DNA from: Chloroflexaceae bacterium
GTDB lineage: Bacteria > Chloroflexota > Chloroflexia > Chloroflexales > Chloroflexaceae
DNA length: 53,912 nucleotides
NCBI GenBank assembly: GCA_012031225.1
Contig: JAAUTZ010000002.1
Span: 80,415-134,326, forward strand
Direction of reading: 5' to 3'
Positions 36,968-46,483 of the stretch are shown piece after piece. Each line of letters opens with the position of its first letter. Position 1 is the first letter of the stretch. A program made the translations under genes and the position numbers. The notes beneath the pieces were generated by a model that was not told where the DNA came from, searched no databases, and saw only the letters and a list, made by a program, of their open reading frames with translations.

Positions 36968-36997
36968 TTGACAGAACTTGGATAGATGTGGTATTCT
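36968..36997 (+). promoter_or_regulatory. Strong promoter of the ilv-leu operon
   Basis: A consensus TTGACA (36968-36973), an 18-nt spacer and TATTCT (36992-36997), preceded by TGG so that it also carries an extended -10. The transcript should start near 37004, roughly 345 nt before ilvB, leaving a long structured leader. Confidence 0.75.
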
Positions 36998-37070
36998 CAC
37001 ACAGGAGCGATATGTGAAGGCTTTCGCAATTCGCACAGAATCGGACTGTATTACAATACATGGAATTACT

Positions 37071-37169
37071 ATGTTTGTGTCAATGTTCGTGAGCTTCCTA
37101 AACATTATTCTCGTACTTGTACTCCTCCTTATTGGTTGGAGCAATACGGTTTCGGGAGCAAAACGGTAA
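37071..37169 (+). CDS. Putative ilv leader peptide (attenuator)
   Basis: A 32-codon ORF, MFVSMFVSFLN then IILVLVLLLI, then GWSNTVSGAKR. It holds ten branched-chain codons in a row (Ile-Ile-Leu-Val-Leu-Val-Leu-Leu-Leu-Ile, 37104-37133), which is the hallmark of an attenuation leader for branched-chain amino acid operons. It lies on the transcript between the promoter and an intrinsic terminator (37195-37225). The ribosome site before ATG 37071 is weak (GGA, 6 nt upstream). The frame continues upstream to GTG 37014, which has AGGAG (37003-37007) 6 nt before it and would give 51 codons, but that site is at the very 5' end of the predicted RNA. Which start is used is open; the Ile/Leu/Val run is the same in both. 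Confidence 0.75.
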   Translation: MFVSMFVSFLNIILVLVLLLIGWSNTVSGAKR

Positions 37170-37207
37170 CACGCGCAAGCACAGACTGAGAACGAAAACC
37201 TCCCGAA
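37151..37207 (+). promoter_or_regulatory. Antiterminator pairing in the ilv leader
   Basis: TTCGGGAG (37151-37158, inside the last codons of the leader ORF) is exactly complementary to CTCCCGAA (37200-37207), which is the 5' arm and loop of the terminator. Formation of this 8-bp pair would block the terminator. A ribosome stalled on the Ile/Leu/Val codons would leave 37151-37158 free; one reaching the stop at 37167-37169 would cover it. Confidence 0.65.
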
Positions 37208-37225
37208 CGACACGGGGGGTTTTTT
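37195..37225 (+). terminator. Intrinsic terminator (attenuator) before ilvB
   Basis: AAAACCTCCCG (37195-37205) pairs with CGGGGGGTTTT (37213-37223) over 11 bp with one T/G wobble and a 7-nt loop, then TTTTTT overlaps its end. It lies in the leader, upstream of ilvB, and is the expected conditional terminator. Confidence 0.8.
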
Positions 37226-37275: not shown

Positions 37276-37320
37276 GCTGTCAAGGCTGTCAAGGCTGTCA
37301 AGGCTGTCAAAACTGTCAAT
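37276..37320 (+). repeat. Five-unit 9-bp tandem repeat in the ilvB leader
   Basis: GCTGTCAAG three times, then GCTGTCAAA and ACTGTCAAT, in tandem (37276-37320), between the terminator and the ilvB ribosome site. Read on the other strand each unit contains TTGACA or a near copy. It may be a slippage-prone repeat or a protein-binding array. Confidence 0.8.
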
Positions 37321-37349: not shown

Positions 37350-39077
37350 ATGTCCGATAAGATGACTGGCGCACACATCATGTGTGAAGCCCTTGTGCGA
37401 GAAGGGGTCGAAGTGATCTTCGGCATTCCCGGCGGGGCCATTATGCCCTTCTACTATGCGATGTATGAGTACCGCGACAAGTTCCGCCACATTCTCTGCC
37501 GCCACGAGCAAGGAGCCGGACACGCCGCCGAAGGCTATGCCCGGACTACAGGGCGGATTGGGGTGTGTGTGGCGACGAGCGGGCCCGGTGCCACCAACCT
37601 TGTCACCCCGATTGCCGACGCGTGGATGGACAGCACGCCGCTGGTCGCCATTACGGGGCAGGTATCGAGTCTGGTTGTGGGTAAGGATGCCTTTCAAGAG
37701 ACGGACATCACCGGTATTACCATGCCGATCACCAAGCACAACTATCTCGTCAAGCGCATTGAGGACATCCCCTACGCGATCAAAGAAGCCTTCTTCCTTG
37801 CCAACACGGGCCGTCCGGGGCCGGTCTTGGTAGATATTACCAAAGATGCCCAGCAAGCCCGCGCCGTGCCGAATTGGAACATCAAGCTCGCCCTACCCGG
37901 CTACAAGCCGACAACGCAAGGCAACCGCAAGCAGATTCGGGCGGCAGTCGAGCTGCTCACGGCAGCGCAGAAGCCCCTGATTATGGCGGGCAATGGCGTG
38001 ATTATGGCGGGTGCAACGGAAGAGCTACGGGCGTTTGCCGAGCGCACCGGGATCCCCGTGATCACCACACTGCACGGCTTGGGGGCGTTCCCCGAAGATC
38101 ACCCGCTCAGCATTGGCATGCCCGGCATGCACGGCTGGGTGCATGTCAACCGGGCGATCCAAGAGTGCGACGTGCTGTTCAACATCGGTGGGCGTTTCGA
38201 TGACCGCGTGACGGGCAAAGCGAGCACCTTTGCACCCAATGCGCGGGTGATCCACGTAGACATTGACCCCTCTGAAATTGGCAAGAACGTGCGTACCGAA
38301 GTGCCTATCGTGGGCGATGCCAAAGTGGTGTTGCAGGCTCTGATCGAGGAGATGCCGACCCGCGTAGCCACCGAATGGATGCAGCATATCCGCCAGTTGC
38401 AGGCTACCCACCAGCCCAAGCAGCAATACCTGAACCGCCCAGATACGAACCAGTTGCTACCGCATGATGTTTATGCCGCACTGAACCGTACCCTCAATGA
38501 GCGGGGGAACTACCGCGTGATTACCGACGTAGGCCAGCACCAGATGTGGGCCGCCCAATTGATTGACTGGAGCCGCCCGCGCACCCACATCACCAGCGGC
38601 GGATCGGGCACGATGGGCTTCTCGGTGCCTGCCGCACTCGGCGCGGCGATTGCCTACCCAGATGAAACAATTTGGGTGATCTGTGGCGATGGTGGTTTCC
38701 AGATGACCAACCAAGAACTGGCAACGATTGTGCAGGAGGGCATCACCAACATCAAGATTGCGATCATCAACAACGGCTATCTGGGCATGGTGCGCCAGTG
38801 GCAAGAGCTGTTCGAGGATCGCCGCTACAGCCACACCCTGCTTAGTGGGCCAGATTTCGCGCGCCTTGCTCAAGCCTATGGCGTGTGCGGGTTGACGGTT
38901 GAAACCATTGACGGCGTTGAGGCTGCTATCGAAGCCGCCTACAACCACAACGGCACGGTGGTGATTGATTTCCGGGTGGAGCGTGAAGTGAATGTGTTCC
39001 CGATGGTGCCGCAGGGCAAGAGCATCGGCGACATGATTGAGCAGCAGCCAACCGAAGAAGCGAACCCAACGGCGTAG
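37350..39077 (+). CDS. ilvB: Acetolactate synthase, large subunit
   Basis: 575 aa, full length. It joins two pyruvates to acetolactate (or pyruvate and 2-ketobutyrate to acetohydroxybutyrate) with ThDP, the first common step to valine/leucine and isoleucine. Signatures are the catalytic Glu in CRHEQGAGHAAEGYAR, the SGPGATNLVTPIADA loop, and the ThDP/Mg site GDGGFQMTNQELAT with NNGYLGMVRQWQE. I start at ATG 37350 because AGGAGG (37339-37344) lies 5 nt upstream; a longer reading would run through the tandem repeat. It is followed by its small subunit ilvN. Confidence 0.95.
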   Translation: MSDKMTGAHIMCEALVREGVEVIFGIPGGAIMPFYYAMYEYRDKFRHILCRHEQGAGHAAEGYARTTGRIGVCVATSGPGATNLVTPIADAWMDSTPLVAITGQVSSLVVGKDAFQETDITGITMPITKHNYLVKRIEDIPYAIKEAFFLANTGRPGPVLVDITKDAQQARAVPNWNIKLALPGYKPTTQGNRKQIRAAVELLTAAQKPLIMAGNGVIMAGATEELRAFAERTGIPVITTLHGLGAFPEDHPLSIGMPGMHGWVHVNRAIQECDVLFNIGGRFDDRVTGKASTFAPNARVIHVDIDPSEIGKNVRTEVPIVGDAKVVLQALIEEMPTRVATEWMQHIRQLQATHQPKQQYLNRPDTNQLLPHDVYAALNRTLNERGNYRVITDVGQHQMWAAQLIDWSRPRTHITSGGSGTMGFSVPAALGAAIAYPDETIWVICGDGGFQMTNQELATIVQEGITNIKIAIINNGYLGMVRQWQELFEDRRYSHTLLSGPDFARLAQAYGVCGLTVETIDGVEAAIEAAYNHNGTVVIDFRVEREVNVFPMVPQGKSIGDMIEQQPTEEANPTA

Positions 39078-39130
39078 GCGGCCCAAGCCACAATCGAATT
39101 GCATAACCTGATATGAATGGGAGAACCTCT

Positions 39131-39673
39131 GTGAAGAAACATACACTGGTGGCACTGATGCAGGATCGTCCGGGTGTGCTGACCCGTGCGGTGAGCTTGT
39201 TCCGGCGACGCGGCTTCAACATCGAGAGCCTGACAGTTGGGCATAGCGAAACGCCCGGCGTAAGCCGCATGACGTTGGTGGTTGAGTCAGAAGCGGTTGA
39301 GCAAGTCGTCAAGCAACTGTACCGCTTGGTGGAAGTGCTGAAGGTCAGCGATGTCACTGATGATCCGGCCGTCGAGCGCGAGATGGCCCTCGTCAAGGTG
39401 CATTGCACCAACACCAACCGCTCGGAGATCGTGACGTTGACGCAGCTGTTTGATGCTAAAATTGTGGATGTGGCGAGCACCTCGATCATCGTTGAGATGA
39501 CTGGCTCGCCCAACAAGGTGCAGAACTTTGTGGATGTCATCCGCCCATTTGGGATTAAAGAGATGATGCGGACAGGGCGCGTGGCGATGGTGCGTGGCGC
39601 ACGCACGCATCAAGGTTCTGACTATGTGGGCGTAGAAGAAAATGGGCACGTTGCCGCACCAACGTGGAATTAA
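39131..39673 (+). CDS. ilvN: Acetolactate synthase, small (regulatory) subunit
   Basis: 180 aa, full length for the two-domain type. An N-terminal ACT domain (about 1-75; ALMQDRPGVLTRAVSLFRRRGFN then IESLTVG) binds valine for feedback control, and a C-terminal ferredoxin-like ALS_ss domain (about 80-160) follows. Start GTG 39131 lies 8 nt after GGGAG; the ATG at 39113 lies upstream of that site. It follows ilvB at 53 nt and precedes ilvC at 22 nt. Confidence 0.92.
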   Translation: MKKHTLVALMQDRPGVLTRAVSLFRRRGFNIESLTVGHSETPGVSRMTLVVESEAVEQVVKQLYRLVEVLKVSDVTDDPAVEREMALVKVHCTNTNRSEIVTLTQLFDAKIVDVASTSIIVEMTGSPNKVQNFVDVIRPFGIKEMMRTGRVAMVRGARTHQGSDYVGVEENGHVAAPTWN

Positions 39674-39695: not shown

Positions 39696-40721
39696 ATGGC
39701 AGCAGAAGTATTGTACGATAAGCAAGCCGATCTTGAGCGGCTGAAACACAAACCGATTGCGATTATTGGTTTTGGCAGTCAGGGCCATGCCCACGCGATG
39801 AATTTGCAAGACAGTGGACTTGATGTGCGTGTGGGTTTATATGCGGATAGTAAGAGTCGCGCCAAAGCCGAAGCCGCCGGCTTGACTGTGCGTACCGTCA
39901 GTGAGGCGGTCAAAGAGGCGCAGGTGGTGATGATCTTGACCCCTGACATTGGGCAGGCGGATGTGTACCGCGATGAGATCGCGCCATATATGGAGCCGGG
40001 TAAAACGCTGATGTTTGCACACGGTTTCAACATCCGCTTTGGGCAGATCGTGCCGGACAAGAGCATTGACGTAAGCATGATCGCGCCAAAAGGGCCCGGC
40101 CACCGTCTACGCGAGGTGTACGTCAATGGTGGTGGCATTCCCGCCCTGATTGCCGTGGAGCAAGATGCAACGGGTGGGGCTTTCGAGGATGCAATGGCCT
40201 ATGCGAAAGGGCTGGGCTGCACCCGGGCTGGGGTACTCCGCACCACGTTTGCCGAAGAGACCGAGACCGACCTGTTCGGGGAGCAGGCGGTGCTGTGTGG
40301 CGGCGTGAGTGAGTTGATCAAACTTGGCTACGAAACGCTGCTCCAAGCGGGCTACCAGCCCGAAGTTGCCTACTTCGAGTGTCTGCACGAAGTTAAGCTG
40401 ATTGTAGACCTGCTGTATCAAGGTGGGCTGAACTACATGAACTACTCGGTGAGTGATACCGCCGAGTTTGGCGGCTACACCTCAGGCCCGAAGGTGGTGG
40501 GTGAGGAATCGCGCAAAGCCATGCAGCAGGTGCTGGCTGATATTCAGAGTGGCGCATTTGCCGAAGAGTGGATTGATGAGAACCATCAAGGCCGCGCCAA
40601 CTTCTACCGCCTGCGCCGTGAGAACAGCGAGCATCCGGTGGAGATCGTCGGGCGTGAGCTGCGCCGCATGATGCCGTTTGTCAACCCACGTGAGGTAACG
40701 CCGGGCAGTGGCGGAGCCTAA
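39696..40721 (+). CDS. ilvC: Ketol-acid reductoisomerase, class I
   Basis: 341 aa. It isomerises and reduces acetolactate with NAD(P)H. The N-terminal dinucleotide fold reads [18 protein letters not shown], the specificity loop [14 protein letters not shown] follows, and [15 protein letters not shown] is present, as are the metal-binding [12 protein letters not shown] and [13 protein letters not shown]. Its length places it in the short class I. It sits in the operon after ilvN. AAGGAG is upstream of the ATG at longer spacing than usual. Confidence 0.95.
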
Positions 40722-40762: not shown

Positions 40763-40811
40763 GTTTGGATGGCGGCGGCGCATGCCCGAACAACGCAAGG
40801 AGGAACGACGC

Positions 40812-42530
40812 ATGAGTGAAGACCGTGTACGCATTTTTGATACGACGCTGCGCGATGGTGAGCAAGCCCCCGGCTGCACCATGACGCTGGATGAGAAGCT
40901 CGAAGTGGCCCGCCAGCTGGCCCGCCTGAAGGTTGATATTATCGAGGCGGGCTTTCCGGCGGCATCGCCCGGCGACTGGGCGGCGGTCTATCAGATCGCG
41001 CAGGAGATCGGCACGCCCGATGGCCCCACGATTGCGGCTCTGGCTCGCGCCAACCGCGATGATATTGAGAAGGCGTGGACAGCTATTCAGCCCGCCGCCA
41101 AGAAACGCATTCATACGTTTATCTCTAGTTCCGATATTCATATTGAGCATCAACTGCGTTCCAACCGGGAAGAGGTGCTGGATAAGGTGCAGGAGATGGT
41201 GCGCTTTGCCCGTTCGTTGTGCGATGATATTGAGTTCTCGCCGATGGATGCCACCCGCTCCGATCCGGCGTTTATGTACCAGATGTTGGGCATTGCAATC
41301 GCCGAAGGGGCGACCACGCTGAACATCCCCGATACGGTGGGCTATGCCACGCCCGAAGAGTACGGCAAGCTGATTGCGGGCATTCGGACGCAGGTGCCCG
41401 GCGCAGATCGGGTGACCATCTCGACCCACTGCCACGACGATCTCGGCATGGCTGTAGCCAATAGCCTTGCCGGTGTGCTGCATGGCGCACGCCAGATTGA
41501 GTGTACGATCAATGGCATCGGTGAGCGGGCGGGCAATGCCTCGCTCGAAGAGGTGGTGATGACGCTGCACACCCGCGCCAACTTCTATGGCGTGGAGTCG
41601 CAGATTGTGACCCGTGAACTTGCCCGCGCCAGCCGGCTGGTCAGCAGCTTTACCGGCATTCCCGTGCCGCCCAACAAGGCCATTGTCGGTGCAAACGCCT
41701 TCGCCCACGAGTCCGGCATCCACCAAGATGGCGTGCTGAAGCATCGCCAGACGTATGAGATTATGAGTGCCGAGACGGTTGGGCTAGAGAGCAACCGGTT
41801 GGTGCTGGGTAAGCACAGCGGGCGACACGCCTTCCGGCGCCACCTTGAGAGCATGGGCTACCATCTCAATGATGACGACTTCCAGCAAGTGTTCACCCGC
41901 TTCAAAGAGCTGTGTGATCGCAAGAAGGTGGTGGATGACCGCGACCTTGAGGTGCTGGTGACGGGCGAAACGCAGCGCACCCCAGAGATCTTCCGCATGG
42001 AGCATATCCAAGTGACGGCGGGCACCGGACTGATTCCGGTGGCATCGGTGCGCCTGATCGGCCCCGATGAGCAAATCCACACCACGAGCGCACACGGCAC
42101 AGGTCCGGTGGATGCTGTCTACAAGGCGATCAATGTGATTGTGCAACGCCCCAACGAGCTGGTTGAGTTTATGATTAACGCTGTCACGGAAGGGCTAGAT
42201 GCGGTTGCCGAAGTATCGGTGCAGATCCGCGAGCAGGAGCCGAACGAGAACGGCGGCAGACACGGGCCCGCCCCACAGACCGGGCGGGTTAGTTCGCAGT
42301 ATGCCCTGCACGGCGCACAGCGACCCCACATCTACAGTGGCTACGGGGTGAATACGGACATCATCGTGGCTGCTGCGGAAGCCTATCTAGGTGCGCTGAA
42401 CAAGCTGCTCGCCGCCGATCAGCAGCGCATTGCGGCGGAAACAGTAGCGTATGCCGCGGGCTACAACCGCGCCGCGCCGACCTATGCGGTAGACCTTTTC
42501 GGCACGAATGCCGTACAGTCACAGGATTAG
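40812..42530 (+). CDS. leuA: 2-Isopropylmalate synthase
   Basis: 572 aa. It condenses 2-ketoisovalerate with acetyl-CoA, the first leucine-specific step. FDTTLRDGEQAPGCTM and STHCHDDLGMAVANS (metal site) are canonical, as is NGIGERAGNASLEEVV. A C-terminal LeuA regulatory domain (about 395-480, TAGTGLIPVASVRLIGPDE) should bind leucine. Start ATG 40812 follows AAGGAGG; the longer reading from 40782 has no better support. Confidence 0.93.
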   Translation: MSEDRVRIFDTTLRDGEQAPGCTMTLDEKLEVARQLARLKVDIIEAGFPAASPGDWAAVYQIAQEIGTPDGPTIAALARANRDDIEKAWTAIQPAAKKRIHTFISSSDIHIEHQLRSNREEVLDKVQEMVRFARSLCDDIEFSPMDATRSDPAFMYQMLGIAIAEGATTLNIPDTVGYATPEEYGKLIAGIRTQVPGADRVTISTHCHDDLGMAVANSLAGVLHGARQIECTINGIGERAGNASLEEVVMTLHTRANFYGVESQIVTRELARASRLVSSFTGIPVPPNKAIVGANAFAHESGIHQDGVLKHRQTYEIMSAETVGLESNRLVLGKHSGRHAFRRHLESMGYHLNDDDFQQVFTRFKELCDRKKVVDDRDLEVLVTGETQRTPEIFRMEHIQVTAGTGLIPVASVRLIGPDEQIHTTSAHGTGPVDAVYKAINVIVQRPNELVEFMINAVTEGLDAVAEVSVQIREQEPNENGGRHGPAPQTGRVSSQYALHGAQRPHIYSGYGVNTDIIVAAAEAYLGALNKLLAADQQRIAAETVAYAAGYNRAAPTYAVDLFGTNAVQSQD

Positions 42531-42534
42531 CCGC

Positions 42535-43389
42535 GTGAGCCAGCAATCCATCCAGACCATCGCCTTTCTAGGCCCGGCCGGCTCGTTTAGCGAAGAAGCC
42601 GCCCTTGCCTACGCCGCCACCCACGCGGGCGGGGCGGCCCAGATGCTGCCCGTGCAGAGCATTCCGGCGGTGGTGACAGCGATTGAAACGAGTGCCGCGA
42701 CGGTGGGCATTCTGCCGATTGAGAATATGCTCGAAGGCAGCGTGACGTTTACGCTCGATCTGCTGATCCACGAGACGGGACTACGCATTGCGGGCGAGAT
42801 TGTGATCCCGATCCGGCAGTATCTGGTGGCGCGGGTGGGGCTTGCGCTGCAAGAGATCGAGGTGCTGTATGCCCACCCGCAATCGCTGGGGCAGTGCCGC
42901 AAATTCGTTGAGCGGTGCCTGCCCAATGTCATGACTATCGCCTCGCTCAGCAACAGTGTGGCTCCCATCGAGGCACTGGCTGACCCGCGTCCGGCGGCGG
43001 CGATCAGTACCCTGCGGGCCGCAGAGCAGAACAGTGCGGCGATCCTTGCCCGCGAGATCGCCGACCATCGCAGCAACGTAACGCGCTTCATTGTGTTAGC
43101 CCAGCACGACAGCCCACCGACGGGCGATGACAAAACTAGCTTCTGCTTCACGTTCAGCCAAGATCGGGCTGGCATTCTGGTGGATGTGTTGCAGGAGTTG
43201 GCCCAAGACCAGATCAACATGACCAAGCTCGAATCGCGCCCCTCGAAAGAGGAGCTAGGCAACTACATCTTTTTGGTTGACATAAACGGACATCGTGATG
43301 ATGATCGCATCGCCCACGTCCTGAAGCGCATCGCCGCCAAAACCCGCATGCTCAAGGTGTTCGGGAGCTACCCGCGCTGGAAGGGGTAG
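42535..43389 (+). CDS. pheA: Prephenate dehydratase
   Basis: 284 aa. It converts prephenate to phenylpyruvate in phenylalanine synthesis. A PDT domain (about 4-180; AFLGPAGSFSEEAAL, then GILPIENMLEGSV, and NVTRFIVL with the TRF signature) is followed by an ACT domain (about 200-275; AGILVDVLQELAQDQINMTK then LESRP), with the ESRP motif that binds phenylalanine. No chorismate mutase domain. Start GTG 42535 comes 4 nt after the leuA stop. Its position inside a branched-chain operon is unusual. Confidence 0.92.
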   Translation: MSQQSIQTIAFLGPAGSFSEEAALAYAATHAGGAAQMLPVQSIPAVVTAIETSAATVGILPIENMLEGSVTFTLDLLIHETGLRIAGEIVIPIRQYLVARVGLALQEIEVLYAHPQSLGQCRKFVERCLPNVMTIASLSNSVAPIEALADPRPAAAISTLRAAEQNSAAILAREIADHRSNVTRFIVLAQHDSPPTGDDKTSFCFTFSQDRAGILVDVLQELAQDQINMTKLESRPSKEELGNYIFLVDINGHRDDDRIAHVLKRIAAKTRMLKVFGSYPRWKG

Positions 43390-43451: not shown

Positions 43452-45056
43452 ATGCAGATACTATTGTATGACACGACCCTGCGCGATGGCACGCAGCGTG
43501 AAGGCTTGTCGCTCTCGTGTGAGGATAAGCTCAAGGTAGCGCGGGCCCTCGACAATCTCGGTATTCACTATATTGAGGGCGGCTGGCCCGGCTCGAACCC
43601 GAAAGACGCGGAGTTCTTTCAAGCGGTGCAGTCCATCAGCCTCAGCCACGCCCGCATTGCCGCCTTCGGTAGCACCCGCCACGTCCGCCACACCTGCGCC
43701 AGTGATCCGAACATCCAAGCCCTTGTCGCGGCGCAAACGCCGGTGGTGACGCTGGTTGGCAAAACGTGGACGCTGCATGTGGAGCAGGTCCTCGAAACCA
43801 CCCCGGATGAGAACCTCGCTATGATTAGCGAGAGCATCGCCTACTTCAAACAACTGGACAAAGAGGTGATCTACGATGCGGAACACTTCTTCGATGGCTA
43901 CGCCGCCCATCCCACGTATGCCCTCGCCACCTTGCAAGCCGCACACGCGGCGGGCGCGGATTGCCTGACCCTGTGCGACACCAACGGCGGCGCGTTGCCC
44001 GATCAGGTGCGGGCAGCAGTGCAGGCGGTGCGAGATGCGCTGCCCGCTGCGACACTCGGCATCCACACCCACAACGACGGCGGCCTCGCCCTTGCCAATG
44101 CGCTTGTGGCGGTGCAGGCGGGCTGCACACAGGTGCAGGGTACCATCAATGGCTACGGCGAACGCTGCGGTAATATGGATCTGATCCCCTTGATTGCTAA
44201 CCTGCAACTCAAGCTCGGCTACGCCTGCGTCGCCTCAGAGCAACTCCGCACCCTCAGCGATGTATCGCACTACGTCGCCGCCGTAGCCAACCTCAACCCC
44301 GATCACCACGCCCCGTATGTAGGGCGCAGTGCCTTTGCCCACAAGGGCGGCATCCACGTTGCGGCGATGGCCAAAGTTGCCGAGAGCTACCAGCACATCG
44401 AGCCAGAGCTGGTCGGCAACCGGATGCGGGTTGTCGTCAGTGAGCTGGCTGGGCGCGGCAACGTCCGGATGCGGGCCGAGGAGCTAGGCATTGCCGTGAA
44501 CGGCAACGAGCAACAACTCGTGCAGCAGATCAAAGCGTTGGAGAATCAAGGCTTCCAATTCGAGGCGGCTGAGGGCAGCTTCGAGATGCTGGTGCGCCGC
44601 AGCCACCCCGCCTATCAGCCGCCCTTCGAGCTACTCGACTTTACCGTGATTATCGAGAAGCGCGGCGGCAATACAATCTACTCGCAGGCAACCACCCGCG
44701 TGCGCGTCGGCACCGAGGTGATGCACACCGCCGCTGATGGCAATGGCCCAGTGAATGCGCTGGATAGTGCGATCCGCAAAGCCCTACTCCCCTACTACCC
44801 GCAATTGGCAGAGGTCAAACTCGCGGACTTCAAAGTCCGGATCATAGACGAGCATCGTGGCACTGGCGCAGTTCCGCGTGTGCTGATCGAAAGCATGCGT
44901 GGCGACGAACGCTGGAGTACCATCGGAGCTTCAACCAATATCATCGAAGCAAGCTGGCTGGCTCTCTGGGATAGCCTAGAGTTGCCGCTGGCGCGTGATC
45001 TGGCTCAGGATCAATCCCCACAAGCATATGAGACGAAGGAGAGTTTCACCCAATGA
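43452..45056 (+). CDS. cimA: (R)-Citramalate synthase
   Basis: 534 aa. It condenses pyruvate with acetyl-CoA to citramalate, giving 2-ketobutyrate and isoleucine without threonine. [17 protein letters not shown] is the CimA version of the LeuA signature (GTQREG in place of GEQAPG). The metal site reads [17 protein letters not shown], and [13 protein letters not shown] is also CimA-like. The C-terminal domain (about 400-515) is the regulatory part. LeuC starts in its stop codon (ATGA overlap). LeuC/LeuD are known to process citramalate too, so their position right after it makes sense. Confidence 0.9.
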
Positions 45057-46483
45057 CACGTAACGGTCAACCGCGCACGCTGTTTGAGAAGGTTTGGGAT
45101 GCCCACGAGGTACGCGCCCAAACGGACGATACGCCCGGCGTGCTCTACATTGATCTGCATCTGGTGCATGAAGTCACCTCACCGCAAGCCTTCACCATGC
45201 TGCGCGAGCAAGGCCTGACGGTGCGCCGCCCGGATCGCACGCTCGCCACAATGGACCACAGCACGCCCACTACCCCGCGCAATGCGCTGGGCATCATCCC
45301 GATTGCGGATAGCCAAGCGGCGGCTCAGCTTGATACCCTGACCCGCAACTGCCACGATTTCGGCATTCCGCTCTACGCGCTCGGCACCGAGAATCAAGGC
45401 ATCGTGCATGTGATTGGCCCGGAGCAGGGGCTAACCCAGCCGGGCATGACTATCGTCTGTGGCGATAGCCACACCAGCACGCACGGTGCATTCGGGGCGT
45501 TGGCGTTTGGTATCGGCACGAGCGAAGTCGGCCATGTGTTAGCGACGCAGTGCCTGATCCAGACCCGCCCCAAGACGTGCGAGGTGCGCGTGAATGGGCG
45601 GCTACAGCCGGGGGTCGGCGCGAAGGATATTATTCTGGCGATCATTGCCAAGATTGGGGTAGGCGGCGGCACGGGCTACGTATTCGAGTATACCGGCGAG
45701 GCGATCCGTGCGCTGACAATGGAAGAGCGCATGACGATCTGCAATATGAGTATCGAAGGGGGCGCACGGGCCGGCATGGTCGCCCCTGATGAAACCACCT
45801 TTGACTATATCAAGGGCCGCCCGTATGCCCCGCACGGTGCTGATTGGGATGCAGCCGTCGCCTACTGGCGCACCCTGCCGAGCGATGCGGGCGCGACGTA
45901 TGATCGCCTGATCGAGCTAGATGCAAGCACGCTCACGCCGATGATTACCTATGGCACGAATCCGGGCATGGGCATGGCCATCACCGATAGCGTGCCTGCG
46001 CCGGAGCAGCTGGATGAGCCGAGTGCGCGCACCACGCTCGACAAAGCCCTGAAGTATATGGATTTGCAGCCCGGCGAACGGCTGCTCGGCAAGCCGGTAG
46101 ATGTCGTCTTCATTGGCAGCTGCACCAATTCGCGGATCAGCGATCTGCGCCTTGCCGCCAGCATTATGCAGGGGCGCAGGGTAGCCCCGAATGTGCGCGT
46201 AATGGTTGTGCCCGGCTCGCAGCAAGTCAAGCGGCAGGCCGAGCAGGAAGGGCTAGACCGCATCTTCCGCGAGGCTGGGGCCGAGTGGCGCGAGGCGGGC
46301 TGTAGCATGTGCATCGCCATGAACGGCGATCAGTTGCAGCCCGGCCAGTATGCCGTCAGCACCAGCAACCGCAACTTCGAGGGGCGGCAGGGCAAAGGCG
46401 GGCGCACCTTCCTTGCTAGCCCACTGACAGCCGCTGCTACCGCCGTCAATGGGGTTATCACCGACGTTCGCACAATGCTATAA
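45053..46483 (+). CDS. leuC: 3-Isopropylmalate dehydratase, large subunit
   Basis: 476 aa, full-length large subunit of the isopropylmalate isomerase (with LeuD). [4Fe-4S] cluster cysteines appear in [13 protein letters not shown] and in [10 protein letters not shown]. The DHSTPT and [22 protein letters not shown] motifs are also canonical. AAGGAG is upstream of the ATG. The gene overlaps cimA by 4 nt and is 20 nt before leuD. Confidence 0.95.

Follow-up and report, generated by a model that had tools for sequence, protein, structure and literature searches.

A probable leader-peptide attenuator of the ilvB operon in Chloroflexota and its conservation among relatives

Results

Organization of the locus

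The window, by which we mean the whole 53,912-nucleotide stretch of DNA that was analysed, contains an operon for branched-chain amino acid (BCAA) biosynthesis on the forward strand. Its first gene is ilvB (37350-39077), which encodes the acetolactate synthase large subunit (Pfam TPP_enzyme N, M and C domains) and is followed by ilvN (39113-39673), ilvC (39696-40721), leuA (40782-42530), pheA (42508-43389), a second LeuA-like gene of the citramalate synthase type (cimA/leuA-like, 43452-45056) and leuC (45053-46483). An earlier interpretation made from the DNA letters by a model, here termed the sequence-only reading, had named a branched-chain operon downstream of a leader, and the gene order bears this out. 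Upstream of the leader lies a gene for a UvrD-like helicase, which is on the opposite strand and points away; the terminator described below therefore does not belong to it.

The leader begins with a sigma-70-type promoter (36968-36997, forward strand, as are all the features of the leader) consisting of TTGACA (36968-36973), a spacer of 18 bases with TG at 36989-36990, and TATTCT (36992-36997). Ten of the 12 consensus bases are matched, and transcription would start near 37004. A leader ORF of 32 amino acids, MFVSMFVSFLNIILVLVLLLIGWSNTVSGAKR, runs from an ATG at 37071 to a TAA stop at 37167-37169 (37071-37169). It has an in-frame alternative start at 37083, lacks a strong Shine-Dalgarno sequence and is kept in two relatives (G022 and G019). 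Within it are ten consecutive Ile/Leu/Val codons (37104-37133; ATT ATT CTC GTA CTT GTA CTC CTC CTT ATT) encoding IILVLVLLLI. This regulatory run, already picked out in the sequence-only reading, is the only one of at least eight such codons in the six frames of the window; when 200 copies of the window were generated with a second-order Markov model, one had a run of ten.

Four RNA segments can be recognized around and beyond the run. Segment 1, CTCCTCC (37122-37128), is formed by the Leu codons CTC CTC CTT and, when no ribosome is present, pairs with segment 2 in a fold of 37119-37165 (-10.6 kcal/mol). Segment 2, TTCGGGAG (37151-37158), is the 5' strand of the putative antiterminator; it starts 17 nt past the run, and the stop codon ends 11 nt beyond it. 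Segment 3, CTCCCGAA (37200-37207), comprises bases of the terminator 5' arm and the first bases of the loop, and is the exact complement of segment 2, as had been claimed. Segment 4, GGGGGG (37214-37219), lies within the predicted intrinsic terminator (37194-37225), which folds as GAAAACCTCCCG, a loop and CGGGGGGTTTTTT, with a 12-pair stem and a U-tract. Promoter, leader ORF, segment 2 and terminator were thus all recovered at the places given in the sequence-only reading. The fold of the whole leader was more stable than all of 200 shuffled sequences (z = -3.6). A pattern scan of the window for terminators did not list the leader terminator, probably because the loop of its core stem has nine bases and the scanner allows eight.

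Between the terminator and ilvB, positions 37276-37319 hold tandem repeats of GCTGTCAAG-like units. The corresponding interval of eight other loci (L005, L006, L008, L013, L020, L023, L040 and L061) contains an unannotated ORF of about 31-43 amino acids, several copies of which end in PVPV-type repeats and Arg residues. A GGAG-type ribosome site often lies ahead of this ORF, which uses ordinary codons (GTG, CTG) and may for these reasons be a real small protein of the operon; it was looked for between the leader terminator and ilvB in the window and was not found.

Conservation across the class and the phylum

We examined the region upstream of ilvB in members of the window's class with a usable contig. 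In 70 non-duplicate loci, representing 35 genera, we found a short ORF containing a run of Ile/Leu/Val codons and, after it, a terminator-like hairpin. The window belongs to one family (f1) of an order whose four families, among the genomes analysed, all carry the element. MAGs of Sphaerobacter and Thermomicrobium have the same leaders as the loci of the window's class, and its phylum is on this ground taken to be Chloroflexota, the host group proposed in the sequence-only reading. Nearly all the leaders checked, from several genera, have a promoter of the form TTGACA-N17/18-TATNCT, which as a rule lies 30-45 bases ahead of the start of the leader.

Some lineages of Chloroflexales seemed to have no leader, with ilvD lying directly upstream of ilvB. 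As ilvD intervenes in this arrangement, a leader was predicted upstream of ilvD, and 15 of 17 Chloroflexales genomes, five from family f2 among them, do have a leader, a GGGAGG-type segment and a terminator at that place; none was found upstream of ilvD in the other two (L251 and L265). Loss of the attenuator in family f2 (Herpetosiphon-like) and genus g16 was consequently rejected. The leader was also not found in L266, from another family of the class.

Among other classes, whose names are inferred from genome properties, a BCAA leader and terminator preceded ilvB in 13 of 30 loci of the Anaerolineae-like class (that of G162), 11 of 21 of the Ktedonobacteria-like class (that of G203) and one of 25, weakly, of the Dehalococcoidia-like class (that of G164). 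A GGGAG/CCTCCC core is common to many of these leaders. BCAA-rich short ORFs and terminators before ilvB were also seen in four loci outside the window's class (L127, Thermus igniterrae; L178; L180; L121). Two MAGs labelled Gemmatimonadetes (L119 and L120) have an ilvB 71-73% identical to that of the window, far closer than in other phyla, which may reflect transfer, or mis-binned or mislabelled contigs.

T-boxes lie directly before ilvB in several genomes of the Dehalococcoidia-like class. Within the window's own class, family f9 has a T-box (RF00230, 106-147 bits) upstream of ilvB in all four loci examined (L088, L113, L097 and L112). In the two loci that give the full order of elements, L088:680-1150 and L113:648-1140, the T-box and the terminator hairpin belonging to it come first, then an ORF for a BCAA-rich peptide and a further terminator, and finally ilvB. 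Judged from these elements, the tandem is a predicted pair of tRNA-charging sensors on one operon.

Covariation and geometry of the pairing segments

The usual sequences are GGGAG and GGGAGG for segment 2, and CTCCC and CCTCCC for segment 3. Many genera depart from these sequences in concert, including at loop bases outside the terminator stem; for example, a concerted variant, CTCCCAGGC/GCCTGGGAG, occurs in L003 and L006, and compensated variants are CCTTCCGCA/TGCGGAGGG (L072), CCTCTCGGTGC/GCATTGAGAGG (L074) and GCCTCCCGAACGC/GCGTTCGGGAGGC (L090). Relatives that retained the terminator and had lost the run or segment 2 would have spoken against attenuation; instead all three were kept together, and among the relatives segments 2, 3 and 4 change in concert. 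A per-locus comparison of 2:3 pairing with shuffled sequences gave p <= 0.05 in 36 of 70 loci (p = 0.075 for the window), but this test is weak as segment 2 is a short G-rich match, and a permutation across genera was therefore used instead. With one locus per genus, arms shuffled among the 35 genera and the relatedness of genera uncorrected, the mean score of segment 2 against its own terminator arm was 20.5 versus 17.3 (sd 0.46) after permutation, and none of 20,000 permutations was as good. A test in which segment 2 and arms were swapped gave a Wilcoxon p of 2e-6.

The spacing of these elements is similarly constrained. In 32 of 35 genera the first base of segment 2 is found 11-25 nt past the last codon of the run, and in 34 of 35 its 3' end falls in the interval from -21 to +12 nt relative to the end of the stop codon. 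These positions correspond to about the zone that a ribosome at the stop codon would be expected to cover, and that one stalled in the run would leave free.

Folding in the presence of a ribosome

We modelled folding with bases masked up to the leading edge of a stalled ribosome, with a ribosome at the stop codon or with none. With a stalled ribosome, the probability of 2:3 pairing was about 0.9 while the transcript ended between 37208 and 37216, before the 3' arm of the terminator emerges. With a ribosome at the stop codon, or no ribosome, the probability of the terminator was about 1. The switch that the sequence-only reading expected from folding with and without a ribosome was thus reproduced for nascent transcripts, but not at equilibrium: even with a stalled ribosome, the terminator (-24.9 kcal/mol) is favoured over the antiterminator (-18.4 kcal/mol) by 6.5 kcal/mol. 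Since the terminator is the more stable structure, the switch must be kinetic, with 2:3 pairing formed before segment 4 is made; antitermination must, on this model, win by timing, as in classical attenuators.

Codon choice within the run

Codon usage in the runs was compared with that of the ilvB genes of the same 35 genera and of genes of the window. Leu is encoded by CTC or CTT in 86% of cases in the runs and by CTG in 4%, whereas CTG makes up 48% of Leu codons in ilvB of the same genera; GTA accounts for 65% of Val codons in the runs versus 6% in ilvB. Bias in Leu and Val codons was sought outside the run in the same leader ORFs and was not seen. Avoidance of G was considered as the sole cause and rejected, as GTA is favoured even among Val codons not ending in G (61 of 84 in runs against 46 of 359, p = 8e-27). 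The choice of CTC and CTT may in addition be constrained by the pairing between segments 1 and 2.

The favoured codons CTC/CTT and GTA are read by tRNA-Leu(GAG) and tRNA-Val(UAC), the genes for which are adjacent (G000:C79:33109-33282, L243); one of each was found in the window's genome. According to theory, the codons used for regulation are the ones whose isoacceptor most readily loses its charge (PMC1183508). That the runs use CTC/CTT, GTA and ATT/ATC in preference to CTG and GTG, which are otherwise common, suggests a sensor tuned to tRNA-Leu(GAG) and tRNA-Val(UAC).

Discussion

A model for control of the ilvB operon

The leader in the window has the parts of a leader-peptide attenuator, namely a run of codons for the end products, an intrinsic terminator before the first gene, a mutually exclusive antiterminator and an operon that makes the amino acids being sensed. 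We consider it very probable that this leader is a classical ribosome-mediated transcription attenuator of the ilvB operon. This conclusion draws on an anatomy that is exact and above chance, conservation over 70 loci, covariation, geometry, folding with a masked ribosome and codon bias; the ribosome-mediated interpretation offered in the sequence-only reading is strengthened accordingly by the comparison of relatives. Points that weigh against it are the weak Shine-Dalgarno region of the leader, the greater stability of the full terminator and the modest share of loci in which 2:3 pairing taken singly exceeds shuffled sequences.

In the proposed mechanism, transcription would begin near 37004 and a ribosome would translate the 32-codon leader. 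Under a shortage of charged Ile-, Leu- or Val-tRNA, the ribosome would stall within 37104-37133 and leave segment 2 unpaired; free segment 2 could then pair with newly transcribed segment 3 before segment 4 exists, pre-empting the terminator and allowing RNA polymerase to continue into ilvB. Under adequate charging the ribosome would reach the stop codon and cover segment 2, whereupon segments 3 and 4 would form the terminator and transcription would end. In the absence of translation, segment 1 would capture segment 2, making termination the default.

Alternative explanations

A different role could be imagined for the peptide itself. Because MFVSMFVSFLNIILVLVLLLIGWSNTVSGAKR resembles a short hydrophobic span with a basic end, the ORF might encode a functional single-span membrane microprotein, with the run as its transmembrane helix and the terminator unrelated to it. 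Phe and Met are common in membrane helices, yet none of the 927 residues in the runs is Phe, Met, Trp, Tyr or Cys. Codons are moreover constrained inside the run and not outside it, outside the run there is no conservation of residues from one family to another, and the ORF is tied to an adjacent RNA switch that covaries, all of which make a microprotein highly improbable. Much the same low probability attaches to a nascent-chain arrest peptide, in which the peptide and a small molecule, rather than uncharged tRNA, would stop the ribosome. The similarity of the C-terminus, LLIGWS(N/K), within family f1 would fit such a peptide, but this C-terminus is missing from other families with the same RNA architecture, and what the families have in common is Ile/Leu/Val content and codon type.

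Control of the terminator by a T-box, a riboswitch or another RNA that senses tRNA or a metabolite has some precedent, since family f9 and some Dehalococcoidia-like genomes have T-boxes immediately before ilvB. Rfam covariance models run over the whole window returned no family at threshold, T-box (RF00230) included, and neither a T-box nor any other Rfam RNA was found in 20 Chloroflexales loci. The best match at the leader was a weak one to Phe_leader, which scored 18.8 bits where 55 are required, and none of the amino-acid leader families in Rfam attained its gathering cut-off. A T-box or other Rfam RNA at the window leader was thus rejected, and we regard control by any such sensor as extremely improbable. 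It is also conceivable that the leader and terminator exist while the operon is mainly controlled otherwise, for example through its promoter, with attenuation being weak. Streptomyces coelicolor sets a precedent, in that altering the regulatory codons of an ilvB leader of similar appearance is reported not to have had the effect expected of a classical attenuator (PMC1262725). Against this stand the conservation and covariation of the long-range segments, which imply selection on the switch, and weak attenuation therefore appears distinctly unlikely.

Relation to known systems

The mechanism proposed for the window leader, ribosome-mediated attenuation, is that of the ilvGMEDA, ilvBN and leu attenuators of E. 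coli and Salmonella. The window leader differs from these in its sequence, in its conserved GGGAG/CTCCC core and in having no Rfam leader match at threshold; the runs of the window's class favour CTC/CTT and GTA, whereas leu of E. coli and Salmonella uses CUA (PMC1183508). The T-box (RF00230) likewise responds to the charging of tRNA and acts on a terminator ahead of ilvB, in some Chloroflexota among others, but it binds uncharged tRNA directly, has no translated leader and is absent from the window locus.

For Corynebacterium, BCAA-rich uORFs ahead of ilvB have been demonstrated, and for other Actinobacteria they have been predicted (PMC10272879, PMC1262725); the Actinobacteria survey leaves the exact mode of regulation open (PMC1262725). 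The Corynebacterium ilvB-II motif (PMC10272879) and other actinobacterial leaders (PMC1262725) share with the window a BCAA-rich uORF, a terminator and ilvBNC, but those uORFs encode 15-17 amino acids against 32 in the window, and the GGGAG/CTCCC core and codon choice are absent from the descriptions consulted. Similar uORFs are predicted in carriers of the ilvB-OMG motif (several phyla) and in Leptospira, with a mechanism that is only proposed (PMC10272879). They resemble the window in being BCAA-rich and upstream of ilvB, but are also rich in threonine codons, which the window leader is not, and the window has no Rfam-level match. The statement in the sequence-only reading that this mechanism is best known from proteobacteria was therefore too narrow, since such leaders are demonstrated or predicted in Actinobacteria and other phyla as well.

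A 2010 survey of premature terminators regarded leader-peptide systems as unshown outside Proteobacteria and Actinobacteria before its own case from Firmicutes (PMC2965389). A 2013 survey, which covered five Chloroflexi genomes with only the Rfam models then available, found attenuators mainly in gammaproteobacteria, and amino acid attenuators were suggested to have possibly originated there, with few horizontal transfers (PMC3766115). Our literature search found no report of leader-peptide attenuation in Chloroflexota, although one could be contained in the broad survey of Lopatovskaya et al. 2010 (Mol Biol 44:128), which lay outside its coverage. What we describe is very probably a known mechanism in a phylum for which no report of it was found. 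It stands out for how widely it occurs in the phylum, for the conservation of its core and the codons it favours, and for its pairing with a T-box in family f9.

Evolution and significance

A tentative history, to which we would give slightly less than an even chance, is that a single homologous BCAA attenuator, with its GGGAG/CTCCC core frozen, was present in an early ancestor of the Chloroflexota and was subsequently kept. On this scenario it would have moved with rearrangement of the operon, to lie upstream of ilvD or of ilvB, have given way to a T-box in some Dehalococcoidia-like genomes and have been combined with one, in tandem, in a single family, with its codons held to particular isoacceptors throughout.

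The presence of a BCAA attenuator through much of the Chloroflexota, a phylum distant from Proteobacteria, implies that such control is older, or arose more often, than a gammaproteobacterial origin with few transfers would allow. Its many natural variants provide a test set for the theory that regulatory codons follow the isoacceptors most sensitive to starvation (PMC1183508). Finally, the T-box and leader attenuator of family f9 would represent a natural arrangement of two charging sensors on one operon.
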